Both the position numbers and the translations under genes were made by a program. From Rhodopirellula islandica (GTDB taxonomy: Bacteria; Planctomycetota; Planctomycetia; Pirellulales; Pirellulaceae), in assembly GCF_001027925.1 (NCBI RefSeq), contig NZ_LECT01000016.1, forward strand, positions 186,001-250,000: a stretch of DNA of 64,000 nt, in the 5' to 3' direction. The notes under the pieces are model-generated. The model worked only from the letters and a program-made list of their open reading frames with translations. It did no database searches and was not told where the DNA came from. This document shows, piece after piece, positions 6,445-23,318 of the stretch (positions are counted from its first letter, which is position 1; the number at the start of each line of letters is the position of its first letter).

Positions 6445-7377
6445 TCAATGATCGTGATCGTGATCGTGGACGCTGTGGTCGTGGTCATGTCCGTGATCTT
6501 CGTGCCCGTGATCTTCGTGCCCGTGCTCAACCTGCCCACCAGCAGGATGGTGTTCGTGGCTGTGCCCGGGCAGGTTCTCGATACCGACTGCAATCGCGAC
6601 CCCAAAAAGGAACGCCATCGTCAGCTTGACGCGATCATGGTCGTGAAAGGCGACCTCAGGCAGGAGGTCCGCCAGGGCGATGCCCAGGAAGAAACCGGCT
6701 GAAATCGCGAGTCCCCAGCCAAGGAACGCATTGTTCGCGTCAAACTTCATCGCTCCGAAGTAAAACGCGGCGGCACCGATGGGACAGGCCAACGAGAACG
6801 CGGCGTTCGCGATGTTTTGGGCGGACACAGACCACTTTTGTTTGTTCATCACCGAGGTGATGGCAAAGGCGTCGAGCGGTTTGTGCAGCGCAACCGCCAG
6901 AAAGGTCCCCAGGCCAGCCAAGCCCAACCAGGCACCGTGCTCGGCATCAATCAGAACACTGCTGGCCAGGGCAACACCGTCGACCAACGTGTGAAGTGCA
7001 AGCCCGAAGAACAAGCCGAACCAACTGATGCCTTTCTCGGAATGATGGTGATCGTGACCATGGTCGCATTCGGAGTTGGTGCCGTCTGACTCGACCGGGA
7101 CTCCGTGGTCATGGGTGTGGAACAGGCGAATCGTCAGGAACATGACCAACAGGCCGATCAGTGCACCGCGGCAAGCTTTCGTTGGGGAATTCAACACTTC
7201 AGTGGCGTGCGGCAGTAAATGCAGCAACGCGATTCCCAGCATCAATCCCCCGACGCCGCTCATCAAGAGTTGCGTCCGCAGGTGTGTCATCCGCAGCAGG
7301 GACGAAAGTCGCCCGCCCGCCATCGACGCGGCCAAAACGAAAACACAATAGACAAGAAGGAGCCAGTGAGCAGGCAT
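6445..7377 (-). CDS. ZIP-family metal transporter with His-rich tail
   Basis: This 310-residue membrane protein has the ZIP architecture. A His-rich cytosolic loop (HTHDHG, CDHGHDHHHSEKG, about 95-135) is followed by the two conserved metal-site helices, ALHTLVDGVALASS (HxxxDG) and ALHKPLDAFAITS (HKPLD). The C-terminus is an exceptional run of His/Asp/Glu (about the last 40 residues). ZIP proteins bring zinc and other divalent cations into the cytosol. A variant operator site (CGCAA-N5-TTGCA) lies 43 bp before the start, consistent with induction by zinc shortage, the usual logic for an importer. Such a His-rich C-terminal tail is unusual in bacterial ZIPs and could buffer or sense zinc. Confidence 0.92.
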   Translation of the reverse strand: MPAHWLLLVYCVFVLAASMAGGRLSSLLRMTHLRTQLLMSGVGGLMLGIALLHLLPHATEVLNSPTKACRGALIGLLVMFLTIRLFHTHDHGVPVESDGTNSECDHGHDHHHSEKGISWFGLFFGLALHTLVDGVALASSVLIDAEHGAWLGLAGLGTFLAVALHKPLDAFAITSVMNKQKWSVSAQNIANAAFSLACPIGAAAFYFGAMKFDANNAFLGWGLAISAGFFLGIALADLLPEVAFHDHDRVKLTMAFLFGVAIAVGIENLPGHSHEHHPAGGQVEHGHEDHGHEDHGHDHDHSVHDHDHDH

Positions 7378-7419: not shown

Positions 7420-7434
7420 CGCAAACTGCTTGCA
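7420..7434. promoter_or_regulatory. Putative metal-regulon operator (CGCAAACTGCTTGCA)
   Basis: Variant of TGCAA-N5-KTGCA with one mismatch (first base C), 43 bp upstream of the ZIP start codon. Confidence 0.5.
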
Positions 7435-7511: not shown

Positions 7512-8171
7512 TCACGCGGGACGTGTTCTCACGGAGACGGCTCGACGATGCCTGCGATGTGCACGAACCCCACCACCAATCAGGATGGCTGTTATCAGAG
7601 TGACGGTTGTTGGCTCGGGAACCGCCGCGACCGTCAAACTAACACGATCAGGGGTGAACGAAATGGGTTGGACGGAGTCATCGAAGAAGCTGGAACTGTC
7701 AAGGAGATCGATCGTGAAGTCTCCCGGACGCAATGCGGTCAGGTCGATTGTCGCCAACAGCCAATTTTGATCTTCGAGGTCTCGTGGGAACGCATCGCCA
7801 CGCTCGTCAACGCTGAGGTCTGTCACCGCAAGTCGTGACGGACCATCATTCGTCACGGCTGAAAGACCAAAGGATTCGGATCCGCTGCGATTGGCAAAGA
7901 CATAGCGTGAATCTTGGATGTGCGTCTCACGCTGCACCTCCGAAAAACGGAGTCCATCTCCCCCCGAAATTGCCAGCTCGATTGAAAACGAATCCAATTG
8001 ATCGTCGGAATTGGAAGTGATGAACACGTCAATCGTCGTTGCGGTTCCGGCGGCCAAGCTCGTCTCTGCCGGCACCAGCGAGGCGACGATCGCCGCGGAT
8101 GCTTCGGGCGGCGCGAACAACCATGTCAGGCCAATGAGCACGGGCGCCCAGCGGGTAGTGCGAAATTTCAT
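7512..8171 (-). CDS. PEP-CTERM exported protein (paralogue A)
   Basis: The 219-residue product has a signal peptide (ending near PEASA), a beta-rich cohesin-like body beginning IVASLVPAETSLAAGTATTI, and a C-terminal VPEP motif followed by a hydrophobic stretch and an Arg/His-rich end, the PEP-CTERM sorting layout. It resembles its neighbour 8230-8877 in length and pattern (LSFSIELAISGG-type segment and SSFFDD near the end), so the two look like old paralogues. The ATG at 8171 precedes the signal peptide directly; a longer frame to 8327 would overlap the neighbour. It is the last gene of the unit that starts with the giant surface protein. Confidence 0.8.
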   Translation of the reverse strand: MKFRTTRWAPVLIGLTWLFAPPEASAAIVASLVPAETSLAAGTATTIDVFITSNSDDQLDSFSIELAISGGDGLRFSEVQRETHIQDSRYVFANRSGSESFGLSAVTNDGPSRLAVTDLSVDERGDAFPRDLEDQNWLLATIDLTALRPGDFTIDLLDSSSFFDDSVQPISFTPDRVSLTVAAVPEPTTVTLITAILIGGGVRAHRRHRRAVSVRTRPA

Positions 8172-8229
8172 GAATGCACTGGCAGAGATGGTTGAGATGT
8201 GACTTGAGCGTCCAGTGTGCTGCAACATT

Positions 8230-8877
8230 TCACGCCCGCTGTGTCTTACCGCGACGACGCCATGCAAGTCCCCCTGCCACCCCAGCCATGGCGAGCAGGC
8301 TGGATGGCTCCGGCACGGCCGTGACACTGAGCGGAGTTGAGCTGAACGGGGTTAAATTGAAGCTCAAATCATTGAAAGATGATGTGGGATCGATCGCGAT
8401 TGAGAATGTTCCTGCACTGACCGCATCTACCGAAAACTGCCCAATCAGTTGTGAGTCCACGCCAAGAGTGAACGGGTCGGGCAATCCGACGTCAGGAGCA
8501 GCGCTCTGATCGTCCGAGAAATCCGCGATGCTCAAGGAACCGCCCGCCAAAGTCGTCGCCGGCAACCCCAACGCCACATTGCCGCTCCGGTCGAAAAACA
8601 CGTAGTCCGGGTTGGTTAAAAAGTCATCGCTTTGGGTAGCGGAAAAGGCAAGCCCCGGATCGCCAGAGATCGTGAATAGCATTGCAAAGAAATCCACTTC
8701 GTCGTCGTTGTCGCTCGTGCCAAAAACACTGTACGTCGCTGATTGACCGACTGTCAGTTCCTGAGGCCCGTCAATCGTTAGCGTCAGTGCCGCCCTTGCT
8801 TCGGTGCTGGCCAAGGAGGAAAGAGTCAGGCCGATCGCGAGCAAGGCAATCTTCATCGTCAAGTTTGTCATCTTCAT
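8230..8877 (-). CDS. PEP-CTERM exported protein (paralogue B)
   Basis: This 215-residue protein has a signal peptide (cleavage near STEARA), a beta-sandwich-like body of cohesin or immunoglobulin type starting LTLTIDGPQELTVGQS, and a classic PEP-CTERM end: VPEPSSLLAMAGVAGG followed by WRRRGK. It is related to 7512-8171. It starts 44 bp downstream of the giant surface-protein gene on the same strand, so co-transcription is likely and both PEP-CTERM proteins may work with that protein at the cell envelope. Which partner or ligand it binds cannot be read from the sequence. Confidence 0.85.
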   Translation of the reverse strand: MKMTNLTMKIALLAIGLTLSSLASTEARAALTLTIDGPQELTVGQSATYSVFGTSDNDDEVDFFAMLFTISGDPGLAFSATQSDDFLTNPDYVFFDRSGNVALGLPATTLAGGSLSIADFSDDQSAAPDVGLPDPFTLGVDSQLIGQFSVDAVSAGTFSIAIDPTSSFNDLSFNLTPFSSTPLSVTAVPEPSSLLAMAGVAGGLAWRRRGKTQRA

Positions 8878-8921: not shown

Positions 8922-11900
8922 TTAGTCATCCCAGCCGAGACCGTCGGCCAATCGGCGATTCATTGCACGGGATGTCAGCACGAAGTCCAGACTGTTGACC
9001 ACGCCATCGCCGTTGACGTCGGCTTCGTCCGACTGCGAACTCAAGCCGCGTTGCACACGCAGACGGTCCAGGGCATCGACCCGGCCGTTGCCATCGGTAT
9101 CACCGAGCAAGCGGTAGAATTCCTGGAACACATCGGCCGTCCCGTCGCCATCCATGTCGATGCCGATGCGGTAGTGACCGTCACCCGCGTTGGAGTTGCG
9201 ATTGCCGCCAAGACCTTCGTCGCCAAAGTCCAGGCTCAAGCGGTTGCCGTCGACGCTGGCCGAGTAGTCCGAATCGTCCATCAAAACGCCGTTGTTGCCA
9301 TCCAAGTCATACTTGGTGATTTGAACCCGTCCGGCAGCCATCAGATCATCAAGGCCGTCATCCTGGCCAAACACCAGATCGACGTTGCCAACGTGCGAAC
9401 GCTGAGTTTCGCCATTTTCGACGTCCAGAGCCTCGACCGTGTTTCCGACTTGGAAGTAGTAAGTCACCGGGCCACTGTCGGTGGCGTGTCCGTCCGCATC
9501 GATGCCCGAGGCAATGAAGGTGACCGCGTACATCCCCATTTTGGTGAACGCGAAGTTCATGTGGTTGTGGCTGCCCGCTGGCACTTCGATTTGGTCCGTC
9601 TCGTCGACGCCATCGCTGGTCGCCATCTTGACGTCAGGAGTGCCAAACGTGCCGGTTTGCCACACCGAGAAATCGCCCGGCCCAGAGACCGCTGCCAGTT
9701 GAAGTGTTGCAGTATCGCCCTGCAGCACTCCCTCTTCGAGTTCTTCACCACCGATGCCCAAGAACAAAAGGTTTGGATTCTGGGTTTGTGGCAATACAAA
9801 CAGCGATTCACCAGCATCGACCCCCAGGAAGTCGAAACCAGTGGTTGCCGCGGGGAGTGTGATTTGGGCATCCATCCCCACGTACAACAATGCCTCACTC
9901 GGTTCGTATTCAAGGTCGCCCGCATCGTGTGCGTGGATGTGAAGATCCCACGAAGGTTCTTCCTCATCATGATCGTGGTCATGGTCGTGCTCACCGAAAG
10001 CCACACCGATGTCGGTGTCGCCTGTTGTGAGGACCGACTCGAAGTCACCCAGCACGGGAGCAGCCGTGATGCTCACCGTTGCGAAGGTGTCGGCAGTTCC
10101 ATCGCTGAGCATGTAGTTGAACGAATCTTCACCATCGAAACTGTCGTCGGGTGTGTAGGTGAAGGTGCCATTGGCGTTCAGCACCAAGCTGCCGTGTTCC
10201 GGAGCCGTGGATTCACTGATCACCGGCGTTGCTCCAGCGGCGACTGCGTCGTTGAGCAACACGTTGCCGCGAACTGTGTTTCCGGAGCCCACCATGTAGA
10301 CGTCCTCAGCAGCAATCGACATGTCGCCAATGATGAACGTCAGCGTCACCGCTTCGCTGGAAACCGGTGTTGAACCGTCTTGCAGGACCCCAGAGGTCTG
10401 CACGGTGACCCGATACGTTCCTTCTTGGGTGAAGCCCCAGTTGTAGTGGGCGTGTGTGCCTTCGGGCAGATCCACAACGTCGGCGTCGGTGATCCCATCG
10501 CTGCTGGCCAAGAGGACTTCGGGTGTGCCGAAAGCGTCTTGCTGCCACAGCGAGAATTCGCCAGGACCGTCGACCGCCACCAAGTGGAGAGAAAACTCGT
10601 TGCCCACGAACGTATCGACTTCGACCTCTTCCGAGTTCAAGCCCAGGAAGGGAAGTTCCGGCAAGTTCGCTTGAGGCAAGACATGCAAGGTCTCACCCGC
10701 TGCCGCACCGGTGAAGTCAAAGGCGGAATCCGCAGGCCGGGTGATCGCCGCCTCGGCACCGCCATAGATGATCACTTCATCCAGGTGCAAGCCTTCCCCG
10801 TGATCATGTTCGTCACCTTCGTCATGGTCATGATCATCGTCGTCCTCGTGGTCGTCGTGATCATCTCCTTCGTCATGCTCATCGTCGTGACCATGCTCAT
10901 GACCGTCTTCGCCGAGGACGGAGAAGTCCCAGTGGTCGCCGTGGTAGTTGATCAGGAAGTCCGCGTGTCCTTCGGCGATCACCTCGCCTTGAGGCAGAGC
11001 GGCCGCCGTAATGCTCACCGTTGCGAAGGTGTCGGCTGTTCCATCGCTGAGCATGTAGTTGAACGAATCTTCACCATCGAAACTGTCGTCGGGTGTGTAG
11101 GTGAAGGTGCCATTGGCGTTCAACACCAAGCTGCCGTGTTCCGGAGCCATGGATTCACTGATCACCGGCGTTGCTCCAGCGGCGACTGCGTCGTTGAGCA
11201 ACACGTTGCCGCGAACTGTGTTTCCGGAGCCCACCATGTAGACGTCCTCAGCAGCAATCGACATGTCGCCAATGATGAACGTCAGCGTCACCGCTTCGCT
11301 GGAAACCGGTGTTGAACCGTCTTGCAGGACCCCAGAGGTCTGCACGGTGACCCGATACGTTCCTTCTTGGGTGAAGCCCCAGTTGTAGTGGGCGTGTGTG
11401 CCTTCGGGCAGATCCACAACGTCGGCGTCGGTGATCCCATCGCTGCTGGCCAAGAGGACTTCGGGTGTGCCGAAAGCGTCTTGCTGCCACAGCGAGAATT
11501 CGCCAGGACCGTCGACCGCCACCAAGTGGAGAGAAAACTCGTTGCCCACGAACGTATCGACTTCGACCTCTTCCGAGTTCAAGCCCAGGAAGGGAAGTTC
11601 CGGCAAGTTCGCTTGAGGCAAGACATGCAAGGTCTCACCCGCTGCCGCACCGGTGAAGTCAAAGGCGGAATCCGCAGGCCGGGTGATCGCCGCCTCGGCA
11701 CCGCCATAGATGATCACTTCATCCAGGTGCAAGCCTTCCCCGTGATCATGTTCGTCACCTTCGTCATGGTCATGATCATCGTCGTCCTCGTGGTCGTCGT
11801 GATCATCTCCTTCGTCATGCTCATCGTCGTGACCATGCTCATGGCCGTCTTCGCCGAGGACGGAGAAGTCCCAGTGGTCGCCGTGGTAATTGATCAGGAA

Positions 11901-14900
11901 GTCCGCGTGTCCTTCGGCGATCACCTCGCCTTGTGGCAGAGCGGCGGCAGTGATGGTCACCGAAGCCATGGTGTCGGAGGTGCCATCGCTGAGCATGTAG
12001 CTGAACGAATCCGATCCGTCGAATCCAGACCCGGGCGTGTACACAAACGTGCCGTCGGAATTCAGTTCCAAGTTTCCTCGGAGTGGCCCCATGGTACTGG
12101 TGACCACCGGGGTGATTCCGGCGGCCAATGTGTCGTTGAGCAACACATTGCCGCGAACCGAATTTCCGGCACCCACCATGAAGGCATCATCGGCAGCCAA
12201 GGAGACATCGATGGTCGCTGTTGCGGTCGTGAAGCCACCGCGTTCGTTGGTGATTCGATAGTCGAAACTATCCTGACCAGCGAATCCTTCATTTGCCTCA
12301 TAGGTGAACGTGCCATCGGCATTCAGCGTCAGGATTCCATTGGCAGGCTCCGTTTCGACGGTCGCGACATAGTCGCCCATCGACTCATGCCATTCGTCGT
12401 TCACCGACACATCACCGTTCAGGGTTTCTCCTTCGAAGACCGTGAATGAATCCTCCACGGCACCCAGCGTGTCGACACCGAAGACCATGGTCTGGATGCC
12501 ACTTTCATAGTACGGATCCAAGCCTTCTTCGTAGGTCCCATTGGCGTTGACATCGAGGTAACCACTGAGGAATACGTCAACTTCGTAGATGCCCGGCTTC
12601 GAGAATCCAAGGTTGCGATGAAGGTGGCCGGAACTCCAGAGAACATCGTCGCTGGAGATGCCATCGCTGGTCGTCATGTAGACACGCGGTCCGGCACTCG
12701 GTGACGACCACATCGAGAACTCACCGCCACTACTGCTACGCATGTCCGTCATTTCATAGCGAAGGTACTGTCGCGGCGTGCTGGAGGTGATGCGTGGATC
12801 GTCGGGTACATAACTGGCAAAAAGATCACTCGGAACATCGCCGTTGGTGAAACCCAGGTAGGGTACGCCCGGCACTGAAGAGCTCGGCAGCACGTACAGT
12901 GATTCACCCGCACCGACACCGACGAAATCGTACGCGGCGTCATCCGATCGCTCGACAAGTGCGTTCGAGTCGGCGTAGGTGTAGAGCTGGTTGCTGGCGA
13001 TTTCACCGCCGGGGATCACGTCGTCCGTACCGTGGACCGCCAGCGTCATCTCACCGTCGTTCCAAACCGGACGGTAGTCCGCGTGCTCGTCCGTGTAGTA
13101 GTGCTCGATCGGATCGGGAGTTCCGCGTCGCAACGTGTACACTTCGCCGCCAAAGTAGCTGCGTGCCAGCGGATGCCCTCCGCCGTTGGTGATGCTCGCG
13201 TCGTCTTTGACACTCAGGGCAAGTGTCCCACTTCCAGTTCCGGTCAGGACGGTGACAACATAGGTCGCACCCGAACCGGTCACCGAAACAATCGTTGCAC
13301 CCGATAGGTCGCCCGCGTTCATCACGACTTCAAAATCGGCCGCGTCGACATCCATCACATCTTCGGAAAATTCAACTTCAAATTGAACGGAGTCAGCATC
13401 CGTGGGAGTTGTATCCACTCGCTTGATTCCGCTGACGAGAGCTCCGACCGCGTTGACGACCACGCCATCAAAAACGGTGTTCGGGAACTCAAGAACAGCT
13501 TCGCCCCCAATCGGATCGGTGAGCGTGCCACCATTGAGGTCAATGAGGTTGCTTGTTAGCTGAACGCCGTCCAAGTCCAGGTCAGTGTCTGCAACGGTGT
13601 ATCGGAAGTCCAGAAACGGAGTGCCTGAGCCCGAGACGTAGTCGGCATAAACGACGTTGTCACCGACCTGCAATGCAACCCGTGGGGTTCCTGTCACGTC
13701 AATCGGGAATCCGAAGTAGACTTGGAAGTCGATCGGATCTCCACTGATGCGAGTGCGTGCATCCGGCGGCAACAACACCATCGGGTTTTCGCCCGTTTTG
13801 TTAATAAAGACGCCGGTTGGTGCGAGCCGTGCCCCGCCAACGCCTCCCGCGTTGATGATGTCCGGGTAGGAATCGTTGTCGACGTCGGCTATGTGTAGTC
13901 CCCCATTGTTCACATCCGACGAAATGACAATCGCGTCGCCGAACACGCCGTCGCCTTGATTGGGCGACCAAACTAAACGGTAGCCGCCGTTCGAATACCC
14001 ATAACTAACGATGTCCGGCAGGCCGTCACCGTTCATGTCTGCCGCGACGTTCACCTGAGAATAGAGATAGCCTGGCGTCAGCGTGACTCGGTCGCCGAAG
14101 GTGCCATCTTCCAACTGTGGGTAGTAGCCGACGTGGCTATCCGCACCGCGATCGTAGACAACAAGATCGTTCCGGCCGTCGCCATTGAGGTCAATGACTT
14201 GATGAATGTAGGGGGAGGGGTTCGAGTTCACATCTTGAGGAGCATCAAATGTTCCGTCACCGTTCCCCGGAAAAATATGCAGGTAGGCCGTTGAAGTAAA
14301 CGTGCTGGAGTCGAAAACGCTTCCGGTCGAAACAATGTCGAGATGGCTATCACCATCGACATCCGCCATGAGCAATTCGCCGTAGTACTCATCCGTGAGA
14401 ACTGTTTTTTCGCCCAGCGTTCCATCGGTTTGCTGGAGCAGCACTGCCTTTTCTGCGGTGGTCACTCGCGTCTCAAAATCGTAGCGATTCGCACCATAAA
14501 CCACATCGGCACGGCCGTCACCGTTTAGATCGCCCGCATCTATCCAATAGCCGACTATCAATCCGTCAAACACGACTTCACGAGTGAAGTTTGCGTTGCC
14601 GTCGTTACGATACAGAGTGATCGTGCCTTCGCTCGCGCCTTCAGTCCGCGTGGCAGCGTTGTATTCGTAAACGAGCACATCGGTGTCACCATCGCCGTCG
14701 TAGTCAACGCTGGTCACGCCCTCGGAATAGACTCCGGAATCAGCATTCAATAACTGTTCCGGCTGGAATGTCCCGTCGCCGTTGCCCTGCATGTAGGTCA
14801 ACGCATTCTCGTCAGTTCCAGCAACGACTAAATCGACATTGCCATCGCCGTTGAAATCACCTGTCACTTGCCCCCAAGTTCCTTCCGCAAACTCACCACC

Positions 14901-17900
14901 GAAGTACTCCGGCAGCGCGAACGGAACCAATTGATTGGCCGGAATGAGATCGGCCGCGATGGTGTACGGCTGCGGTCCTTCCGCCGGATCGATGCTGAAG
15001 TAGTAGGTGACGATGCCGCTTTCGGTGTAGCGGTCGACGCCTTCGTCGTAGGTGCCATTGCCGTTTTGATCCGCGAAGCCGCTGGCGAACAGGTCGATCT
15101 CATAGATGCCGGGTTTCGTAAACGCCCAGTTGTAGTGGCCGTGACTGTTCGCAAAAGCGAAAACGGTGTCCTGGTCGTCGATGCCATCGCTGGACGCAAC
15201 CCACACGTTGGGCTCAGTTGCCCCGGACGAGTACAAACTGAATTGACCGCCTTCAGGCAATCGCACATCGACCACCTGCAACTCAACCCAGGAGCCGGTC
15301 GAATCGACTCGTGGATCATCATTGAAGTAACTGGCCATCGAGTCGGAATTGATCCCACCGGCACCAATCCCCAGATCTGGAATCGTCGCGGGCACATTCG
15401 ACTGCGGCAGAACGTAGATCTCGGAACCGGCCTCAGCGCCTAAGAAATCGTATGCGGTGTCGCTGGGGGCCGTCACCTTGCTGTCCGGACCTCCGACGAT
15501 CAAGACTTCGTCGGGCGCGAACTCGGTGTACAGATCGTCCACATACGCATGCAAATCCCACTGACCATCAGAGTATCCGACGCCGATATCACCATGCCCC
15601 TGGGTAAAGAAGTTCGTGATCTCACGCGCCGGGCGACGATTGAGAGTGAACACCTCGCCGCCGACAAAGCCCTCGCCAATCACGTTCGCTTCGGTGTCCG
15701 TGATCGTTGCCGTTTCCAGGACTTCCAATCCGATTGTGCCGCTACCGGTTCCTGTGGACACCGTGACAAAGTATTCGTCGCCCGAACCGCTGACGCCGGT
15801 CACCGATGCGTCGGTAACGCCGTTCAGGGTGACACCAAAGTCGGCCACGTCGACGCCGGAGACGGATTCGCTAAACGTCACCTGGAAAGTCACGTCATGG
15901 GCCGCCATCGGGTTGTCGGATGATCGCTCAACTGAATGCACAACCGGAGCCGATCCGTTGACTAGCACGCCGGACAGATCGACGGCCGGCAATGTCAAGT
16001 CGACGGGATCGCCGGTCGGGCCGATCAGCGACCCGCCGTTGAGGTCGATCGAAGTGCTGACCAACTCGATGCCGTCGTCGTCCGCATCGGTTTCCACGAC
16101 CATGTAGCGGAACAGCAATTCCGTTGTGCCGCCGCCTGAGACGTAGGTCGCTTCAACGGTTTCGTCCCCGACCTGCAGCGACACGCTCGGTGTCCCGGTT
16201 ACCTCAACTGGATAGCCGAAATGAATCGATAAATCCAAGTTCTGGCCGGCTGGATAGATCCGCGTCGCTGGTGGGCGAATCGTGGTGGCGAATTCACCGA
16301 GTCGGTTTGGAAGAACAACGACCTCGCCACGTATCAGATCAGCAGCCACCACGTCCGGATCGCCATCGCCATCGATGTCAGCGGTCGCGATGCCGTTGAC
16401 CTGTCCAACGTCACGGGTGATCTCAATCGAATCGCTGAAGTTGCCGCCGCCAAAGTTTTGCAGCCAGAAGACGGCGCCACCATACGATCCGATCAGGACA
16501 TCAAAGTCCCCGTCCTGGTCAAAGTCAGCCGAGGTGGCGGCGGCGGGCTTGCTCACGCTTGGCAATGCGGTGAATGCCCCGATCGTTCCGTCTGACTGCC
16601 CGGCGTGGAAACCAATCTCCAACGAGTCGAGACCGACCACCAGAAGATCGTCAATGCCATCCCCGTTCAGGTCGTCGGCAGCAAAAACCGACGATCCGGA
16701 TGTGGAAGCGACCGTTTGTTTCGCTCCAAACGTGCCGTCGCCGTTGTTGACGAAGTATGCGAGTTGGCTCGCCCCGTATTCGCCGGTGATGGCCTCGGGA
16801 CGACCGTCCCCGTTCAGGTCGCGGACGACGAATCCTGTCGCTTCGCTCAAGCCAGTGGCGATGACGTTGGCCGAGCCGAACACGCCGGCCCCTTCGTTGC
16901 GATACCAGTAGATATCGCCGCCCCAGTCTCTCGCGACGAGCACGTCCAATTTTCCGTCCCCGTCGACATCGGCCGATCGGATGAACGGCCCATACAGTCC
17001 CGTGTCGATCGATTGAGCCGGGCCGAAACTCTCGCCTAGATTTTCGTGCCAAACCAAATCGCCGAAGTAGCCACCGACGATAACGTCCTGATCGCCATCA
17101 GCATCCAGATCGGCGAGGTGAGCTTCCCATGGATAGCCCGCCTCAGCGGAAACAACCTGTTCTGGTCCGTAGGTTCCGTCGCCGAGGTTCTCGAACCAGA
17201 CCACTTTGTCTGCCGCGTATGACGCGGTCAGGATGTCCACGTGACCATCCCCATTGATGTCGGCCAGTTCCGGTTCAAAGACGTAATCCAAACCCGATCC
17301 AACCACCTCTGGCACACCAAATGGCACCAGGTGATCTGTCGCGGCAATCACTTGGAAACTCGCGTTGGTTTGCAAACCGTCACCGTCGGTCACGGTGATC
17401 GTGATCGTCGATGATCCGATTTGACCCGCCACGGAGTTCACCGAAATGGTGCGATCCGCTCCGCTTCCCCCGAGGGTGATGTTCGCGTTTGGAACGAGCG
17501 TCGTGTTGGACGAAGTTGCTGTGACGGCTAACGCTTCCGCTGCCGTCTCAGCGTCGCCGACGGTGAACGCCAACCCTCCAGTCGAGTCGCCTGCCTTCAC
17601 CACCTGATTGTCCAGTGTTGAGATGGTCGGAGGCGAGTTTGCCGGTTGATCGTTGTCCTGAATCGAGACGGTGGTGGATGTTACGGTGCCGAGCAGTCCG
17701 CCGGTGGCACCTTCGATTGTTTTGATGTAGCCATCAATGGTGTCCGGTGCTGCGTCCGACAATTCGATCGTGAACGATTCATTGGACTCCACTTCCGTGT
17801 CGTCGAGAATCGGGATGGTGATCGTGTTGACGGTCTGACCGTCTGCAAAATCAACGGTGCCGCTGGTCGCGGTGAAGTCCGCAGCAGTCGCGGTGCCGCT

Positions 17901-18878
17901 GGTCGTTGCGTAATCGACACTGATCCGCCCATCGCTGCCACCGACGCGGACCACATCGATCGAGGCCATTCCGGCGTCTTCGTCCACCGAAACACTAGAC
18001 GCGTCAAACTCCAGTTTTCCAACGCTTCCAACCGAAAAATGGACCGTGATCGGATCGCTTTCGCTGAAGCCGGTGGTGTTCGGTGTTGGCTGACCGTCGT
18101 CACCAAAGTGGGCCGAAAGCACGAGGTCGATCTCGTAGCGGCCTGGTTCGCTAAATCCGAAGTTATAGTGCGAATGATTGCCAGTGTTGATCCACATCGC
18201 GTCGTCGGTCGTGATGCCATCGGTCACGTCCAATCCGTTGCCGTTCGGATTGGAAACTCCATCGTCATAGGAAGCCATGGAGACGATTGGCACACCAAAC
18301 GAGTCCGATTGATACATCGAAAATTCGCCAGTCCCGCTGGTGCCATCGGGGTTGGTATGCCGCATGTCCGAGAGGGTTACTTTGGCCCATTGCGCCGGCG
18401 CCGAACCGATGCGTCCCTTCGATTCGAACGATGCGTCGTACCCGTCGACCGTGCTGTCGAGACCGTAGGCTGCGAAACCGGGCCACAGAATGTCCGTGTC
18501 CTGAGCTTGGGGTAGCAGGTGGAACGATTCACCTGCATCGACGCCAAGGAAATCATAGGCTGCCGATGCCGGCCCGGTGATTTCCGCCGGGGAACCCACG
18601 TACAGCACCGCCTGTTCATTGTCGTACTGAATCTGCCCACCGACTTCATCCGCGCGAACACCGAGACTCCACTCTCCGGATTCATGCTGAAGGTTCAGGT
18701 CGACATGCTGGTTGGTCAGGAAATTGTCCAGCTCAGCCGCCAGCAATTGCCGTCGCTCGAGCGTTTCCATTCGAAGGCCGCCGCGGCGGGTTGTGCGTGA
18801 TTTTCGACCACCTGGAATTCGGCGGGCACCTGAGATTCGACGGGCACCGGACAAACGATCAAGGCGGAATGGATTCAT
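8922..18878 (-). CDS. Giant surface protein with six choice-of-anchor-M-like domains and His-rich clusters
   Basis: About 3318 residues. The N-terminus is Arg-rich and ends METLERRQLLAAE, a LEPR-XLL-like planctomycete export region. Next come an anchor-M-like domain (about 50-270), a Calx-beta domain (290-415), an FG-GAP/VCBS repeat block (510-870), anchor-M domain 2 (1080-1310), FG-GAP block 2 (1330-1700), anchor-M domain 3 (1920-2130), cadherin-like VCBS repeats, then anchor-M domains 4 and 5 in two nearly identical 314-residue units, anchor-M domain 6, and a dockerin-like EF-hand end (about 3255-3318, DTDGNGRVDALD). Three His/Asp clusters (about 2339-2378, 2653-2692, 2958-2975) sit inside domains 4-6. 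Related anchored-repeat proteins in actinobacteria lie beside zinc/manganese ABC transporters. I start at the ATG at 18878; a longer frame to 18977 would swallow the operator motif at 18934. Confidence 0.85.
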   Translation of the reverse strand: MNPFRLDRLSGARRISGARRIPGGRKSRTTRRGGLRMETLERRQLLAAELDNFLTNQHVDLNLQHESGEWSLGVRADEVGGQIQYDNEQAVLYVGSPAEITGPASAAYDFLGVDAGESFHLLPQAQDTDILWPGFAAYGLDSTVDGYDASFESKGRIGSAPAQWAKVTLSDMRHTNPDGTSGTGEFSMYQSDSFGVPIVSMASYDDGVSNPNGNGLDVTDGITTDDAMWINTGNHSHYNFGFSEPGRYEIDLVLSAHFGDDGQPTPNTTGFSESDPITVHFSVGSVGKLEFDASSVSVDEDAGMASIDVVRVGGSDGRISVDYATTSGTATAADFTATSGTVDFADGQTVNTITIPILDDTEVESNESFTIELSDAAPDTIDGYIKTIEGATGGLLGTVTSTTVSIQDNDQPANSPPTISTLDNQVVKAGDSTGGLAFTVGDAETAAEALAVTATSSNTTLVPNANITLGGSGADRTISVNSVAGQIGSSTITITVTDGDGLQTNASFQVIAATDHLVPFGVPEVVGSGLDYVFEPELADINGDGHVDILTASYAADKVVWFENLGDGTYGPEQVVSAEAGYPWEAHLADLDADGDQDVIVGGYFGDLVWHENLGESFGPAQSIDTGLYGPFIRSADVDGDGKLDVLVARDWGGDIYWYRNEGAGVFGSANVIATGLSEATGFVVRDLNGDGRPEAITGEYGASQLAYFVNNGDGTFGAKQTVASTSGSSVFAADDLNGDGIDDLLVVGLDSLEIGFHAGQSDGTIGAFTALPSVSKPAAATSADFDQDGDFDVLIGSYGGAVFWLQNFGGGNFSDSIEITRDVGQVNGIATADIDGDGDPDVVAADLIRGEVVVLPNRLGEFATTIRPPATRIYPAGQNLDLSIHFGYPVEVTGTPSVSLQVGDETVEATYVSGGGTTELLFRYMVVETDADDDGIELVSTSIDLNGGSLIGPTGDPVDLTLPAVDLSGVLVNGSAPVVHSVERSSDNPMAAHDVTFQVTFSESVSGVDVADFGVTLNGVTDASVTGVSGSGDEYFVTVSTGTGSGTIGLEVLETATITDTEANVIGEGFVGGEVFTLNRRPAREITNFFTQGHGDIGVGYSDGQWDLHAYVDDLYTEFAPDEVLIVGGPDSKVTAPSDTAYDFLGAEAGSEIYVLPQSNVPATIPDLGIGAGGINSDSMASYFNDDPRVDSTGSWVELQVVDVRLPEGGQFSLYSSGATEPNVWVASSDGIDDQDTVFAFANSHGHYNWAFTKPGIYEIDLFASGFADQNGNGTYDEGVDRYTESGIVTYYFSIDPAEGPQPYTIAADLIPANQLVPFALPEYFGGEFAEGTWGQVTGDFNGDGNVDLVVAGTDENALTYMQGNGDGTFQPEQLLNADSGVYSEGVTSVDYDGDGDTDVLVYEYNAATRTEGASEGTITLYRNDGNANFTREVVFDGLIVGYWIDAGDLNGDGRADVVYGANRYDFETRVTTAEKAVLLQQTDGTLGEKTVLTDEYYGELLMADVDGDSHLDIVSTGSVFDSSTFTSTAYLHIFPGNGDGTFDAPQDVNSNPSPYIHQVIDLNGDGRNDLVVYDRGADSHVGYYPQLEDGTFGDRVTLTPGYLYSQVNVAADMNGDGLPDIVSYGYSNGGYRLVWSPNQGDGVFGDAIVISSDVNNGGLHIADVDNDSYPDIINAGGVGGARLAPTGVFINKTGENPMVLLPPDARTRISGDPIDFQVYFGFPIDVTGTPRVALQVGDNVVYADYVSGSGTPFLDFRYTVADTDLDLDGVQLTSNLIDLNGGTLTDPIGGEAVLEFPNTVFDGVVVNAVGALVSGIKRVDTTPTDADSVQFEVEFSEDVMDVDAADFEVVMNAGDLSGATIVSVTGSGATYVVTVLTGTGSGTLALSVKDDASITNGGGHPLARSYFGGEVYTLRRGTPDPIEHYYTDEHADYRPVWNDGEMTLAVHGTDDVIPGGEIASNQLYTYADSNALVERSDDAAYDFVGVGAGESLYVLPSSSVPGVPYLGFTNGDVPSDLFASYVPDDPRITSSTPRQYLRYEMTDMRSSSGGEFSMWSSPSAGPRVYMTTSDGISSDDVLWSSGHLHRNLGFSKPGIYEVDVFLSGYLDVNANGTYEEGLDPYYESGIQTMVFGVDTLGAVEDSFTVFEGETLNGDVSVNDEWHESMGDYVATVETEPANGILTLNADGTFTYEANEGFAGQDSFDYRITNERGGFTTATATIDVSLAADDAFMVGAGNSVRGNVLLNDTLAAGITPVVTSTMGPLRGNLELNSDGTFVYTPGSGFDGSDSFSYMLSDGTSDTMASVTITAAALPQGEVIAEGHADFLINYHGDHWDFSVLGEDGHEHGHDDEHDEGDDHDDHEDDDDHDHDEGDEHDHGEGLHLDEVIIYGGAEAAITRPADSAFDFTGAAAGETLHVLPQANLPELPFLGLNSEEVEVDTFVGNEFSLHLVAVDGPGEFSLWQQDAFGTPEVLLASSDGITDADVVDLPEGTHAHYNWGFTQEGTYRVTVQTSGVLQDGSTPVSSEAVTLTFIIGDMSIAAEDVYMVGSGNTVRGNVLLNDAVAAGATPVISESMAPEHGSLVLNANGTFTYTPDDSFDGEDSFNYMLSDGTADTFATVSITAAALPQGEVIAEGHADFLINYHGDHWDFSVLGEDGHEHGHDDEHDEGDDHDDHEDDDDHDHDEGDEHDHGEGLHLDEVIIYGGAEAAITRPADSAFDFTGAAAGETLHVLPQANLPELPFLGLNSEEVEVDTFVGNEFSLHLVAVDGPGEFSLWQQDAFGTPEVLLASSDGITDADVVDLPEGTHAHYNWGFTQEGTYRVTVQTSGVLQDGSTPVSSEAVTLTFIIGDMSIAAEDVYMVGSGNTVRGNVLLNDAVAAGATPVISESTAPEHGSLVLNANGTFTYTPDDSFDGEDSFNYMLSDGTADTFATVSITAAPVLGDFESVLTTGDTDIGVAFGEHDHDHDHDEEEPSWDLHIHAHDAGDLEYEPSEALLYVGMDAQITLPAATTGFDFLGVDAGESLFVLPQTQNPNLLFLGIGGEELEEGVLQGDTATLQLAAVSGPGDFSVWQTGTFGTPDVKMATSDGVDETDQIEVPAGSHNHMNFAFTKMGMYAVTFIASGIDADGHATDSGPVTYYFQVGNTVEALDVENGETQRSHVGNVDLVFGQDDGLDDLMAAGRVQITKYDLDGNNGVLMDDSDYSASVDGNRLSLDFGDEGLGGNRNSNAGDGHYRIGIDMDGDGTADVFQEFYRLLGDTDGNGRVDALDRLRVQRGLSSQSDEADVNGDGVVNSLDFVLTSRAMNRRLADGLGWDD
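10066..11949 (-). repeat. Tandem duplication, two ~942-bp units inside the giant gene
   Basis: Units 11008-11949 and 10066-11007 are almost identical, with only scattered single-base differences (for example near 10212/11154, 10901/11843 and 10949/11891). Each encodes 314 residues: one anchor-M-like domain with a His-rich cluster plus one cadherin-like repeat. The near identity implies a recent duplication or ongoing gene conversion. Confidence 0.9.
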
Positions 18879-18933
18879 CGAACAGGTAACTCCAGGCGGG
18901 GCGTCAACGAGGGAGATGCTTAACTCAAGCACA

Positions 18934-18948
18934 TGCAATGTAGTTGCA
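18934..18948. promoter_or_regulatory. Putative metal-regulon operator (TGCAATGTAGTTGCA)
   Basis: This is the most symmetric copy of the motif (TGCAA-N5-TTGCA), 55 bp upstream of the ATG of the giant His-rich surface protein. It links that protein to the ZIP and CobW genes by shared regulation. Confidence 0.65.
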
Positions 18949-19013
18949 AGAGTAAAAGCGTGTTGATAGTAGGTCAACTAGCCAATTTGACCTAACCCGC
19001 AAATTTTCGGCAG

Positions 19014-19484
19014 TCAGTCGAACTGGAACTCCACCGCGGTCAGCCATCCGCTGGTCGTGGGTGCCTCGCGGTAGTGATATTGCCCTTTCTCAACCTGCCC
19101 CACATGCGCGACGCCCCGCTCGCTAGCAAGCTCCGGGACGTCGTCCTCGGAAACTTCACAAGCTGCCAGCAGGTTCAGCAGTGCGGATGCAGGAAAACCG
19201 GTTCCTTTCGGACGTTTTGCTTGCTTGGGGCGACGCCTCGCCGCAGGTTGGTCTCCGACCGGAAGTGGCAGTGGTTCCGAGCTCGTGATCAAGCAAACGA
19301 TGGTCGATCCGGAAGGCCCTGAAGACTCCGATCCGCCGATCACCTTGCTCTCGCTGAGAAACGAAACTCCTAGAACCTGCTCCATTTTTTCAAGCTCTGG
19401 CGCAGGTGGGGGAGCAGCGTCGCAACCTAGCAGTGCGAGCGATGACAGCAGCAGGAGGTTTCGGTTGAAGAGCCGAATGTTCAT
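19014..19484 (-). CDS. Putative lipoprotein, last gene of the DUF1559 operon
   Basis: This 156-residue protein has a lipoprotein signal (LLLLSSLALLGC, lipobox LLGC) followed by a Pro/Ala linker. No domain is recognised; the central part has a short basic run (RRRPKQAKRPK). The ATG at 19484 overlaps the stop of the upstream DUF1559 gene by 4 bp (ATGA), which fixes the start and indicates translational coupling. Small lipoproteins commonly follow DUF1559 genes in planctomycetes; the function is unknown. Confidence 0.7.
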   Translation of the reverse strand: MNIRLFNRNLLLLSSLALLGCDAAPPPAPELEKMEQVLGVSFLSESKVIGGSESSGPSGSTIVCLITSSEPLPLPVGDQPAARRRPKQAKRPKGTGFPASALLNLLAACEVSEDDVPELASERGVAHVGQVEKGQYHYREAPTTSGWLTAVEFQFD

Positions 19485-20620
19485 TCGAGTTGCCCGTTCG
19501 CTTCGCCGCCATTGGCACTGCCCATCGCCCACCAAAGCTGCAGGTCAATTGACTCACTGCGGAAGCCAACGCTTCCATCAGCCATTAGCACGTGAACGCC
19601 ACCGGTGTGGTAACTTCCCGGCGTGACCAGATTGTTGCCCAGCCCTTCCCCGCCATAGACATGGCAGTTTCGCTCGCCGATCGGCATCACATGCATGTAG
19701 GTGTTTGCCGCGAAGGTCCAGCCGCTGATCCACGAATGGCCGTGTTTTTCGATGTAGCTGGGGTCACCGTGGGTCACTGATCCACAGTAGGGGACCCATT
19801 TTTCGAGCGACCGGGCGCTGATGGAACTTCCGCAGAACGACTGCATGTTCTCGTCGGTTTCGGGTGATACCGTGCGACCGCCCCACCAAGTGTCGACAAT
19901 GGTTGCGGCACTGATTTTTCGCTCGGCGACCGCGGCGGTATTAGACAGCCCGTCGGTGATGTCACGGAATTTGATATCGCGAACCTGCCAAGAGCCCGGC
20001 TGGGACGGATTGTGCAGCCCGAACACGCCGTTTTGTCGCTCCAACGGTTGGTCATGTCCCGGCCAGTGAGATCGCATCGGCCATCCTACGTTGGCGGCAT
20101 AATTTCCCGGTGCAAGTTGTTCGCCATCCTCGTGCAACTGCAAGGCACCTGCTGGATCGGAGGGGCAAAGGTACGTTCCAACCAAGGTGCGAGCCGCTTC
20201 GGCATTGGGATGGCTCGGGGCGATGCTGTAGTCCAGGTAGTCGCTGCTGAAGGAGTAGTTGCAGTGGTCGGAAAGAGCGACGTCGAAGTCAATCGAATCG
20301 TGCAGATTCTGTTGCTCGACATAAGGAAGGATCATGGCAAGCCAACTGTAGAACCCGCTTCCACAACTGGAGCCCGAAGTATCCGGTCCTGTCGAGGTCG
20401 TCGGAATGGAGCGAAAGGCCCCGTGGTAGTTGTGGACCGCCAAGCCAATTTGTTTCATGTTGTTACTGCATTGCATTCGTCTCGCCGCCTCGCGGGCTGC
20501 TTGGACCGCCGGCAAAAGGACGCCGACCAGGATGCCAATGATGGCGATGACAACGAGCAATTCGATCAAGGTGAATGCATCACGCAAGCGATGCAAACGT
20601 TTGGGGGTTATCGGAAGCAT
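19481..20620 (-). CDS. DUF1559 family protein with type IV pilin-like N-terminus
   Basis: 379 residues. The N-terminus has a prepilin-type methylation and cleavage signal (DAFTLIELLVVIAIIGIL) and then VLLPAVQAAREAARRMQCSNNMKQIGLAVHNY, the hallmark of planctomycete DUF1559 (SBP_bac_10-like) proteins. The remainder is the usual disulfide-containing beta-rich domain ending with a HTGGVHVLMADGSV-like signature. These proteins are exported like pseudopilins and occur in dozens of copies per planctomycete genome; their roles are largely unknown. The ATG at 20620 is preceded by AAGGAAA. It lies 10 bp after the spermidine-synthase-like gene and overlaps the following lipoprotein gene. Confidence 0.92.
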   Translation of the reverse strand: MLPITPKRLHRLRDAFTLIELLVVIAIIGILVGVLLPAVQAAREAARRMQCSNNMKQIGLAVHNYHGAFRSIPTTSTGPDTSGSSCGSGFYSWLAMILPYVEQQNLHDSIDFDVALSDHCNYSFSSDYLDYSIAPSHPNAEAARTLVGTYLCPSDPAGALQLHEDGEQLAPGNYAANVGWPMRSHWPGHDQPLERQNGVFGLHNPSQPGSWQVRDIKFRDITDGLSNTAAVAERKISAATIVDTWWGGRTVSPETDENMQSFCGSSISARSLEKWVPYCGSVTHGDPSYIEKHGHSWISGWTFAANTYMHVMPIGERNCHVYGGEGLGNNLVTPGSYHTGGVHVLMADGSVGFRSESIDLQLWWAMGSANGGEANGQLE

Positions 20621-20630
20621 CTTCGTTTCC

Positions 20631-23318
20631 TTACTTTTCTGCTGGGCGGGTCGTAACAAAATGTGGCGGTGTCGAACCGCCTGTCTCATCTGTGTCTGTC
20701 GTATTCAAGTCGTTCACCCATCGGATTCCTGGGGCACCTGGCCAGCGATCCCAGTCAGCCAAGTGGTCATCCCGGAGGCAACGCGGGATCGATCTCGCAA
20801 CACGCGAGCCGATTGAGTCTGCCAACTTGTTTCTGGTCCGGCGTGCATGATCCCATTCCAAAAGCCCAGTGGCGAGCAACGTCAGTTCCGCTTGTGATCC
20901 AGGTGCGGCAGGTGGTTCTCGGGCGATCCTTTTCTGACACTCGCGGCAGAACTCAATCCATCTCACTGGCTGGAAGTAGTGCTTGCCAGCATGGGCTGAA
21001 AGACGAACGGCGGCCGCGGAGTATTCCAGTGACGGGTCGGCAAGCGACACCAGCCGCGTTCGACCCCGCTCGTTCTTCCATGATCCAAGATGAAGCAGTC
21101 GGACGCCGGATTCGTGCCTGAGCAGGGGGGCATGAATCGCCTCCATTTCACGCAACTGATCGCAATGTTGGCCAACCTGTTTCCAGTCGAGGCACCCGAG
21201 ATCTTTTCCGCCCACCAATGCGATCATCGGAGACGCGACCCGAAAGTGGTTCATGAACAAGTGAGTTTCGTTGAACTCGCTCGAAAAGGTATCCGCGATC
21301 AGCTCGAATTGCTCCGGTGTCAGCTGGTACATCGGAAGCCATTGGCAAAAGATACCGCCTGGCTTCAAAGCATTCCGGACGGACGCGAAATGTTCCCGGC
21401 TATACAAACGCGAGGTACCAGACGCCCAAGGCAAAAACAGATCGCCGGTGATGACATCGAATTGCTCCGTCATGGACGCGAGATAGGTTCTTCCATCACC
21501 TACCACCACGGTTGCCAGATCGCTTTGACAGATGTCGTGATTGAATTCGCTGAAATGTCTCTCCGCTGCTCGTGCCACCAAGGGCGAGATTTCGATTGAA
21601 ACCACCGCGTCGACCGTCGGGATGGACAAGGACGCTCCCGGGGTAATGCCTGTCGCCAGTCCAATGCACGCAACCTTGGATGGTTGCTTGTGCAGCACCA
21701 GGGGCAAGAGCGTCTGGCGTTCTTGGTCGTAGCGAACCGCAGTCCCTCCAAGCAAATATTGATTCGCGACCAGGATCGAGCGTTCACCGCGCCGGTCTTC
21801 GATCACCGCAACCGTTCCCTCGCGACCGGACTGGACGTCAATCGGATCGATCCCTGGTGGCGGATTGATGACGGGAAGGAAGGTGTTCACGAACCCCAGT
21901 AGCAACACGATGCTGACGCACAGTGCTGCTGAGACGCGGGTGACGACCGAAGCATGCGGTGAACCGGAGAGAACCACACAGGGAAGCATTGAGAACAGGG
22001 CTGCAACCGTGGCGAATGCCATTCCAATGGCCGTCATCGTCCCATAGACGCCTAAAGTTGGCAGGAGCACTCGGTAGGTCAGCTCCGCTCCCAGCATGCC
22101 ACCAATTCCGTTGACCGACAAAAGCAAGCCGACCCGTTGGCCCGATTGAATGGGTGAGCACTGCCGGCCGGCACTGGCAATCGCGAAGGGGAATATCAAA
22201 CCAGCGATGACCCAGGCTGGGCCAACCGACAGCAGTGCCATTGCCCCTAGCTTCAATACGAAAAGGGCGACACTCGTATTTTCAGCAAACCAATTGGATT
22301 GCCGAGCAAATGCCATGAATACCTGAGGCGCCAAAACCACGAACACACTGCTGGTCGCAAGAACCAGAACAATGGTCCTTTGACTGGATGGGGAGACGAA
22401 CAGCGATTCAAAACGGGCAAACAAAGCCGCTGCAATGCCGAGAGAAGCGATGGCACAAAACAGAACGGCAGCCGGCGAAAACACCGAGATCGTTGCGACC
22501 AGCTGAAACATCTGAAAGGCTGCAACCTCGATCGCTAAAACCGCCGCGCCTGAAAAGAATGCCAGCCAGAGCGCTCTGCTGAATGCGATGGTCAACGCAG
22601 CTTCTTCTGCTCTGGAGATGATCGCTTTCTCAGGTGCAGTCCTACGAGGAGGCAGGGTTGGGAAAGCTTTCGCGCAAATCAAGAGTGCGATGCCGATCGC
22701 CCCGTCGACGCTCGCCGCCAAAACCATTGATGCAAAGTTCCCCCATTGAGGAATCGCCACCATGATTGTGAACAGCACTCCCATCGCTCCACCGATCGTA
22801 TTGACCGCGTAAAGGTTGATGCCGGATCGCCCCAGACGACCTCCATTCGATCTCAACAGTCCGGCAACAATCAGGGGAAACGACAGTCCCATGATGGCCG
22901 CAGGCGGGAGCACGAAGCCGAGAGTCAGCAGTGATCGAATGGCAAAACCATTGGATCCGTGCGTCGCGTCCGCACCGACCAGAGGCCAAATCCAATCGGT
23001 CAGCTGGGACAAGTAGAGGACCGGAACGACCAGAAACGGAATGCTTAGTTGTGCCAGGCCAGCAAGTCTTAGCGGGTTTCGAGTGCGTCCAACCAACAAC
23101 GCGGCGATTGCTGATCCAATCGAGAGCCCCAGAAAGAAGGTGCCGAAGACACGCGCCGTCGATTCACCACTGGCACCCAGCAGATCGGCCAGCCGCCGAG
23201 TCCACAGCAACTGATGCCCCAACGCAGCCATCCCACTCAGGAACGTAAGTGCCCCCAGAAGAACTCCGGGCAGAGCTTCAAGTCGATGTTCAATTCGAGG
23301 AGGGGTGTTGTTGCTCAT
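20631..23318 (-). CDS. Membrane-fused spermidine synthase-like protein
   Basis: 895 residues. The N-terminal two-thirds is a polytopic membrane region, starting with ALTFLSGMAALGHQLLWTRRLADLLG, typical of the fused MFS/spermidine-synthase family. The C-terminal third is a Rossmann-type methyltransferase-like domain, with CIGLATGITPGASLS at the ligand-binding loop and FDVITGDLFLPWASGTSRLYSREHF as in spermidine synthases. Such fusions are widespread in planctomycetes; whether they make polyamines is not established. It is the first gene of an operon with the DUF1559 protein and a lipoprotein, so a role tied to envelope assembly is possible. The ATG at 23318 follows a 220-bp gap from the upstream gene. 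Confidence 0.85.
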   Translation of the reverse strand: MSNNTPPRIEHRLEALPGVLLGALTFLSGMAALGHQLLWTRRLADLLGASGESTARVFGTFFLGLSIGSAIAALLVGRTRNPLRLAGLAQLSIPFLVVPVLYLSQLTDWIWPLVGADATHGSNGFAIRSLLTLGFVLPPAAIMGLSFPLIVAGLLRSNGGRLGRSGINLYAVNTIGGAMGVLFTIMVAIPQWGNFASMVLAASVDGAIGIALLICAKAFPTLPPRRTAPEKAIISRAEEAALTIAFSRALWLAFFSGAAVLAIEVAAFQMFQLVATISVFSPAAVLFCAIASLGIAAALFARFESLFVSPSSQRTIVLVLATSSVFVVLAPQVFMAFARQSNWFAENTSVALFVLKLGAMALLSVGPAWVIAGLIFPFAIASAGRQCSPIQSGQRVGLLLSVNGIGGMLGAELTYRVLLPTLGVYGTMTAIGMAFATVAALFSMLPCVVLSGSPHASVVTRVSAALCVSIVLLLGFVNTFLPVINPPPGIDPIDVQSGREGTVAVIEDRRGERSILVANQYLLGGTAVRYDQERQTLLPLVLHKQPSKVACIGLATGITPGASLSIPTVDAVVSIEISPLVARAAERHFSEFNHDICQSDLATVVVGDGRTYLASMTEQFDVITGDLFLPWASGTSRLYSREHFASVRNALKPGGIFCQWLPMYQLTPEQFELIADTFSSEFNETHLFMNHFRVASPMIALVGGKDLGCLDWKQVGQHCDQLREMEAIHAPLLRHESGVRLLHLGSWKNERGRTRLVSLADPSLEYSAAAVRLSAHAGKHYFQPVRWIEFCRECQKRIAREPPAAPGSQAELTLLATGLLEWDHARRTRNKLADSIGSRVARSIPRCLRDDHLADWDRWPGAPGIRWVNDLNTTDTDETGGSTPPHFVTTRPAEK

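Follow-up and report, generated by a model that had tools for sequence, protein, structure and literature searches.

Among the proteins most like the one considered here are the zinc-regulated ZnuE, ZnuF, ZnuG, CmrA and CmrA2 of Corynebacterium diphtheriae, in which Peng and colleagues described an HxD/HxH motif (PMC12445094). The corynebacterial proteins are extracytoplasmic and sortase- or membrane-linked in a Gram-positive bacterium, they carry one to several copies of the motif (at most three), with HxD and HxH bracketing about 150 residues, and the Znu proteins adjoin an ABC transporter (PMC12445094). The streptococcal Pht proteins are also surface proteins with repeated His motifs, for which a hand-over of zinc to a transporter has been proposed (PMC12445094), and in Anabaena the zinc exoprotein ZepA, which has homologues in the PVC superphylum, is under the control of Zur (PMC10957091). 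With ZepA and the corynebacterial proteins published, the general idea of extracellular zinc proteins is already known. Here we describe a giant protein of 3318 residues with six choice-of-anchor M (anchor-M) domains, encoded in a 64,000-nucleotide stretch of the planctomycete Rhodopirellula islandica (contig NZ_LECT01000016.1, positions 186,001 to 250,000), which we call the window. Its gene lies in an island of metal-related genes and belongs to a gene set with a common operator, whose sites are also present upstream of ZIP, CobW, MerC, Fur and anchor-M genes of other genomes, and a zinc-collecting role of the giant is likely. What is unusual here is the six-module size with His/Asp inserts, the ZIP setting, the operator common to related genomes, and the clades of DUF1559 proteins that accompany anchor-M genes.

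The gene for the giant runs from 8922 to 18878 on the minus strand, which confirms the extent given by a sequence-only reading of this stretch that had left the strand unstated. The longest open reading frame (ORF) is 8922..18977; from the ATG at 18878 it encodes 3318 amino acids (aa) with no internal stops. The NCBIfam model for the choice-of-anchor M domain, NF038134, matches the protein at 551.7 bits (cut-off 55) in six stretches, as the earlier reading had proposed. All six are on the minus strand: domain 1 (18084..18719, motifs HVD and HSH), domain 2 (15078..15605, HGD and HGH), domain 3 (12561..13097, HAD and HLH), domain 4 (11274..11918, HAD and HAH, with a His/Asp cluster insert), domain 5 (10332..10976, a copy of domain 4) and domain 6 (9447..9959), in which the first His is replaced to give DTD, just upstream of the profile match, and HNH is intact. 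Both motifs are therefore kept in five of the six domains, the sixth being DxD/HxH, and the spacing from HxD to HxH is 150-177 residues, close to that of the corynebacterial proteins, to which the giant is likened by motif and description rather than by direct sequence comparison. In an alignment of 28 anchor-M domains, six of them from the window, HxH was invariant and HxD was present in at least 90%, and the same held in a second alignment of 22 domains that included the same six. An AlphaFold2 model of domain 2 (15042-15641) has a mean pLDDT of 91.9; searches against solved structures gave nothing convincing by sequence profile (best E 0.066) and no Foldseek match at E <=0.001, and the best VIA-align hit had a Z of 4.8 with an rmsd of 3.5 over 100 residues. 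By analogy with the corynebacterial proteins, the anchor-M domain is a likely zinc-binding module. A search of the open-access literature for choice-of-anchor M together with zinc yielded one paper, on skin bacteria.

Beyond its anchor-M domains, the giant carries four tandem-95 stretches, four Big_9 stretches, one Calx-beta domain, nine FG-GAP_3 stretches and a C-terminal dockerin type I domain (8964..9107, minus strand; PF00404, 35.8 bits vs a cut-off of 22.9), all assigned by NCBIfam and Pfam models. A protein of this make-up could be an adhesin or matrix protein, in which the repeats, FG-GAP and dockerin domains serve attachment and anchor-M is merely a structural fold. The Calx-beta, FG-GAP, tandem-95 and dockerin domains are consistent with such a role, as are the DUF1559 pseudopilins that adjoin; the invariance of HxH in 28 of 28 domains and the box that the gene has in common with metal genes argue against it, and we consider it very unlikely.

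The giant contains 82 His, 369 Asp, 188 Glu and zero Cys. Under a rule of at least 7 His in 25 residues, the protein has the three His/Asp clusters claimed from the sequence alone, where 500 shuffles of the same protein gave at most one, and two of the three prove to be copies of one. On the minus strand, cluster 1 lies at 11763..11846, its copy, cluster 2, at 10821..10904, and cluster 3 at 9915..10001. The copying results from a tandem duplication (10057-11962) in which copy A (10057..11020) and copy B (10999-11962) are offset by 942 bp and identical at 950 of 964 bases. The duplication is recent and in frame, and its unit is one anchor-M domain together with its own His cluster.

Several features set the giant apart from the described systems. 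The corynebacterial proteins have at most three motif copies and the giant has six; the Znu proteins adjoin an ABC transporter (PMC12445094), whereas the giant, with its 3318 aa and dockerin domain, lies near a ZIP gene. The Pht proteins, compared by description only, differ in their motif (H-x-x-H-x-H) and in feeding an ABC-type binding protein (PMC12445094). The anchored-repeat system of actinobacteria, to which the sequence-only reading had likened the giant, is matched in part: the repeat model TIGR03769 (188.6 bits vs 30.9) and TIGR03773 (344 vs 190.3) are above cut-off, but the binding-protein model TIGR03772 is below it (200.1 vs 350.45), and the neighbouring ABC transporter with a binding protein that belongs to the TIGR03770-TIGR03773 system is absent from the giant locus. 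The setting resembles that of ZepA, which is secreted and Zur-regulated, has PEP-CTERM, and whose genes have ZupT, COG0523 and Fur-family genes and PEP-CTERM proteins in their vicinity (PMC10957091). However, ZepA has about 300 aa and the motif H-X2-9-H-F/Y-H (PMC10957091), and the giant lacks PEP-CTERM. Neither the giant nor the short anchor-M protein of the window matches this motif (the latter has H-x14-HYH by reading); in other genomes, 4 of the 44 short anchor-M proteins do (L063, L064, L102 and L129). The distinction from ZepA thus concerns motif and description rather than an alignment with the ZepA sequence. In the main text of the ZepA paper, no word begins with 'anchor' (PMC10957091). 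Since ZepA is already a published case of an extracellular zinc protein encoded near ZupT, COG0523 and Fur genes, the arrangement is a variant rather than the new arrangement first proposed.

The box before the giant lies at 18934..18948, 56 bp from the ATG, and reads TGCAACTACATTGCA on the minus strand. It is the operator-like site noted in the earlier reading and one of several palindromes of the island. The pattern TGCA-N7-TGCA occurs nine times in the window where 1.44 are expected, and none of 100 shuffles reached nine. The strict palindrome TGCAA-N5-(T/G)TGCA is present at 42 distinct sites genome-wide. Seven fall in the 22.6 kb between 4388 and 26997, and six of these seven lie 40 to 211 bp upstream of the chosen gene starts, a count that is support and not proof because we chose the gene starts. 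One box (4388..4402) is 40 bp before the likely ATG, at 4442, of a second CobW-family GTPase (CobW2; 4346..5497, plus strand, with a His-rich stretch by reading) and 75 bp before a 154-aa ORF without a family match (3849..4313, minus strand) upstream of a ZigA-type CobW/COG0523 GTPase (2471..3916, minus strand; NF038288, 609.2 bits vs a cut-off of 600). Two boxes, at 6276..6290 and 6326..6340, are 108 and 158 bp upstream of a gene for a MerC-family membrane protein (5530..6168, minus strand; 77.3 bits vs 27.6). The ZIP transporter gene (6445..7377, minus strand; PF02535, 68 bits vs 35.1, with His-rich segments by reading) has a weaker box 43 bp upstream (7420..7434, score 15.1), with one half-site mismatch. 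Another box (25084..25098) is between a small Cys-rich ORF on the minus strand (24577..25005) and an ArsR/SmtB-family metalloregulator on the plus strand (25309..25677; NF033788, 81.9 vs 55), and the last (26080..26094) is 64 bp before a Fur-family regulator (26158..26589, plus strand), a Zur-like candidate.

Box counts within this genome are partly circular because the motif was first spotted by eye in the window. When ORFs of at least 70 aa with ATG starts are considered, 2 of the 7 island boxes (4388 by 18 bp, 26983 by about 1 kb) and 27 of the 35 others lie inside ORFs; when the longest ORFs with ATG, GTG or TTG starts are used, the figures are 5 of 7 (two by only 29 and 42 bp) and 31 of 35, and under this laxer rule the island boxes and the other boxes are not separated. 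The tests in other genomes are more independent support for the box. For these, a position weight matrix (PWM) trained on only six window sites was applied to other genomes, with locus L221 dropped for overlap, own-genome loci and L257, L258 and L263 excluded, and small overlaps (L062 with L209, L069 with L210) kept; p values are rough because the sampled genomes are related to one another.

Of the 130 genes in eight regulon families, 26 had an upstream site scoring at least 14; for other genes the figure was 37 of 1166 (p 1.6e-11), six 'other' genes that have a site in common with a regulon gene being set aside. By family, such sites preceded 6 of 8 ZIP genes, and anchor-M genes alone gave 9 of 83 (p 0.0024). 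The 77 anchor-M loci of other genomes, several of which are on contigs shorter than 20 kb, held 27 sites of at least 18 in 20 loci, where 60 permutations of the PWM gave 0.5 on average and never more than 3. Sites of at least 16 were present in 22 of the 77 loci and in none of 20 control loci from 19 genomes (p 0.0029), and the 20 control stretches also held none of the tested metal genes. At loci of Fur orthologues in other genomes, 11 of 29 had a site of at least 15 upstream, gene starts being approximated. Two box-preceded His-rich proteins (loci L209 and L223) are ZIP proteins by Pfam. One metagenome-assembled planctomycete contig (L261) reproduces a large part of the island: it carries, in order, a Fur gene, a box, a DUF1559 gene, a long anchor-M gene, a weak MerC match, a SpeE-like gene, a box, a short anchor-M gene and a Fur gene. 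The placement of the giant gene in a metal island, as first read, is supported, and beyond that reading the gene belongs to this box-bearing set. In two genomes without an anchor-M match, boxes precede CobW, MerC and ZIP (G594) and MerC (G494); the box regulon exists without the giant, which therefore looks like an accessory added to the regulon. A de novo dyad search upstream of anchor-M and adjacent pilin-like genes ranked TGCA-N7-TGCA first of 2560, with a p of 3.1e-4 before correction that is not significant alone and a background drawn from the same loci; in loci without the box, no alternative dyad stood out (best p 1.5e-4, uncorrected). In the open-access literature, whose results were partly covered, we found no description of a planctomycete metal-uptake operator, and the box offers one that is directly testable.

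We consider it probable, though by no means assured, that the giant is an exported zinc-collecting protein that is derepressed at low zinc alongside ZIP and CobW. In the proposed mechanism, the zinc-loaded Fur-family protein of the island, acting in a Zur-like manner, would repress the island via the TGCAA-N5-TTGCA box; when cytoplasmic zinc falls, it would leave the box, and the giant would be made and exported. The giant might then concentrate zinc at the cell envelope with its six anchor-M modules and His/Asp-rich loops, the co-regulated ZIP would import the zinc, and the two CobW/COG0523 GTPases could hand it on inside the cell. Inferred in this scheme are the binding of the box by the Fur protein, zinc as the metal, the export of the giant and its position on the surface, and the delivery of its metal to ZIP. 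Zinc is favoured because the ZigA model is passed above its cut-off and because the corynebacterial proteins that share the motif are regulated by zinc (PMC12445094). The Fur-family regulator (PF01475, 47.2 vs 23.1) has HPHFxCxxC and CxxC motifs, the paired CxxC being CVDC and CNDC, and its top matches in the Protein Data Bank (PDB) are three Fur proteins followed by the zinc-uptake regulator FurB (2o03). The ZIP importer and the two CobW GTPases, one of them above the ZigA cut-off, are present as the sequence-only reading had it.

It is also possible, if unlikely, that the giant is a surface zinc buffer or sink, for protection or as a store, that does not feed import. In corynebacteria that lack the transporter, ZnuF and ZnuG reduce growth at low zinc, as though they tied up the metal at the surface, and a storage role has been offered for them (PMC12445094). 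The His/Asp clusters of the giant would suit buffering, and the island contains an ArsR/SmtB gene. This family often responds to metal excess. On the other side, the common box ties the giant to ZIP, CobW and a Fur-family regulator, and COG0523 genes under Zur control are associated with zinc limitation (PMC2770081).

The ArsR/SmtB gene raises the further question of which regulator the box belongs to. If the ArsR/SmtB protein owned it, the island would be induced by metal excess and would confer tolerance; the box between the Cys-rich gene and the ArsR gene fits this explanation, and by reading the ArsR protein carries a D-x-H-x10-H-x2-E pattern, which we take to resemble the zinc sensor motif of the SmtB type. 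However, the box recurs before Fur orthologues (the 11 of 29 loci above) and resembles a Fur-family operator, and ArsR relatives were found in only 3 of the 77 anchor-M loci against 7 with Fur relatives. We regard control by ArsR/SmtB as quite improbable.

A number of observations weigh against the reading of the giant as a zinc collector that acts with ZIP. In other genomes, a ZIP gene was found within the fetched stretch (up to 20 kb) at only 1 of 77 anchor-M loci, so a surface scavenger feeding ZIP, as first proposed, does not hold as a conserved pairing; in one further genome (G105), the anchor-M gene and a box-preceded ZIP gene are about 11 kb apart, which places the latter just beyond the fetched stretch. 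At 46 of the 77 loci neither a box of at least 16 nor a tested metal gene was found, and the sequence-only reading, which had held that orthologues without nearby metal genes would speak against it, is to that extent contradicted. His clusters are uncommon and are no conserved feature of anchor-M proteins: in other genomes, 6 of the 43 long anchor-M proteins and 2 of the 44 short ones have them, compared with 16 of 628 other ORFs of at least 300 aa, 8 of those 16 being ZIP proteins. Reading of the giant itself showed neither a classical signal peptide nor a known anchor, and no promoter-like match was found at 18850-19050. The short anchor-M gene of the window has no site of its own scoring 14 or more, three window sites of at least 14 lie away from island gene starts (5478, 28158 and 45804), and a second, better-scoring ZIP gene on another contig is without a box. 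In Corynebacterium, the His residues of the motif mattered for growth, and their role in zinc binding in vitro was inconclusive (PMC12445094).

The remaining objections concern the metal. None of the metal-specific NCBIfam models is passed above cut-off by the Fur-family regulator, the island box equals the consensus tTGCaa-N5-ttGCAA published for Nur of Streptomyces (PMC3919588), and a nickel superoxide dismutase (Ni-SOD) is encoded in the genome. These points would suit a regulon of the same kind that serves nickel, cobalt or another divalent ion, with the giant binding that metal. None of the ZIP, CobW and MerC families is strictly confined to zinc. Against this, the ZigA model is passed, though narrowly, the Ni-SOD gene has no box (best score 8.8), and the same-motif proteins of Corynebacterium are zinc-regulated (PMC12445094). 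Nur answers nickel (PMC3919588), whereas the island genes belong to zinc-linked families. We consider another metal distinctly unlikely.

Other uptake systems of the genome bear on how zinc collected by the giant might enter the cell. The sequence-only reading had found no metal ABC transporter; this is correct for the window, which lacks an ABC-3 permease, but the genome does hold one ABC-3 system, which is located on this contig some 106 kb past the Fur gene. Its permease (L207:4977-6311) is fused to a DtxR-type metal-binding/dimerisation domain, adjoins a ZnuA-family binding protein and has no box, and the ZIP route is therefore plausible. No match to a TonB-dependent receptor barrel was found in the genome. 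By that test the receptor route that the ZepA authors discuss is unavailable, and the finding bears on how scarce zinc is gathered by a cell without TonB-dependent receptors.

Anchor-M proteins are patchily distributed, being found in 60 of 397 sampled genomes of the class and in 13 of 392 sampled from the phylum; relatives of the island Fur protein were found in 118 of 297 sampled genomes of the class. In the 7.43 Mb genome of R. islandica there are seven anchor-M matches, all within the giant and the short protein at 23539-24375 (minus strand), a second anchor-M protein with a single domain (74.9 bits on NF038134, cut-off 55) and PEP-CTERM. Plasmid records held no relatives of the two anchor-M domains queried. 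One other genome (G585) has four separate anchor-M loci (L081, L082, L083 and L084), and at L083 the ZIP, ArsR, HDH and Fur proteins are 69-83% identical to their window counterparts. A contig labelled Alphaproteobacteria (L260) carries two anchor-M proteins, a pilin-like protein, MerC and a Fur-like gene, and is possibly a mislabelled planctomycete-like bin.

The commonest conserved neighbour of anchor-M genes is a DUF1559 pseudopilin and no transporter. DUF1559 proteins are encoded at 60 of the 77 anchor-M loci and at 4 of the 20 control loci (p 2.9e-6), with a median gap to the anchor-M gene of 113 bp in the main cluster (47 loci and the window). In a tree that was built by a quick method and drew long-branch warnings, 40 of the 45 anchor-M neighbours fell into two clades (21 rows with support 99 and 19 rows with support 100), the other five rows standing on four branches outside them. 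Neither clade contains any of the 29 other own-genome DUF1559 proteins used in the tree (30 of the 70 own-genome matches, of which the window's is one, were fetched and 29 used). The window's protein (19481..20689, minus strand) is in an anchor-M-associated clade. The clades have His/Cys positions that are rare or absent in the 29 other own-genome proteins, and in one clade two His with one column between them are present in 19 of 19 members. These correlations suggest that the DUF1559 protein may be a dedicated, possibly metal-binding pseudopilin partner of anchor-M proteins. A search of the open-access literature for DUF1559 together with zinc found no paper. More broadly, anchor-M proteins, from short PEP-CTERM forms to giants, and dedicated DUF1559 pseudopilins with His/Cys metal ligands of their own may form an undescribed extracellular zinc-gathering system of planctomycetes, both being switched, in part of the lineage, by a Zur-like repressor with a Nur-type operator. 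In a cell without TonB-dependent receptors this pair, together with an inner-membrane ZIP, would replace the route by receptor and ABC transporter; we offer this as a tentative and rather unlikely extension. The so far unexplained giant proteins and DUF1559 pseudopilins become candidates for a common, measurable function.

The island itself is made up mainly of ten co-oriented minus-strand genes running from 25005 down to 5530, in the order Cys-rich protein, short anchor-M protein, spermidine-synthase-like protein, DUF1559 protein, lipobox-bearing small protein, giant, two companion proteins, ZIP and MerC. The short anchor-M gene occupies 23539..24375, and relatives of the Cys-rich small protein are present in two to three of the 77 anchor-M loci. 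The spermidine-synthase-like protein (20631..23318) has relatives in 8 of the 77, and the small protein with a lipobox-like LLGC by reading (19014..19535) has relatives in three other anchor-M loci. The two companions had been called PEP-CTERM proteins from sequence alone; this holds for 8230..8877, which has a profile match, while 7512..8327 has no family match and shows a VPEP-type tail by reading (both on the minus strand). Diverging from the run on the plus strand are the ArsR/SmtB regulator, a small His/Asp/Cys-rich protein without a family match (25709..26056) and the Fur-family regulator, and at the other end of the island are the second CobW GTPase and the ZigA-type GTPase.

On the 3' side of the Fur gene, a protein with an A24 prepilin-peptidase N-domain is encoded at 26637-28073, with the strict box at 26983 inside its ORF, followed by a secretin of the GspD/PilQ kind (28434-30554, below cut-offs) and, by reading, a TPR-like protein (31116-31844). 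The left border of the island is formed by an IS4-family transposase (310-1683) and a PDDEXK_3 protein (1981-2373).

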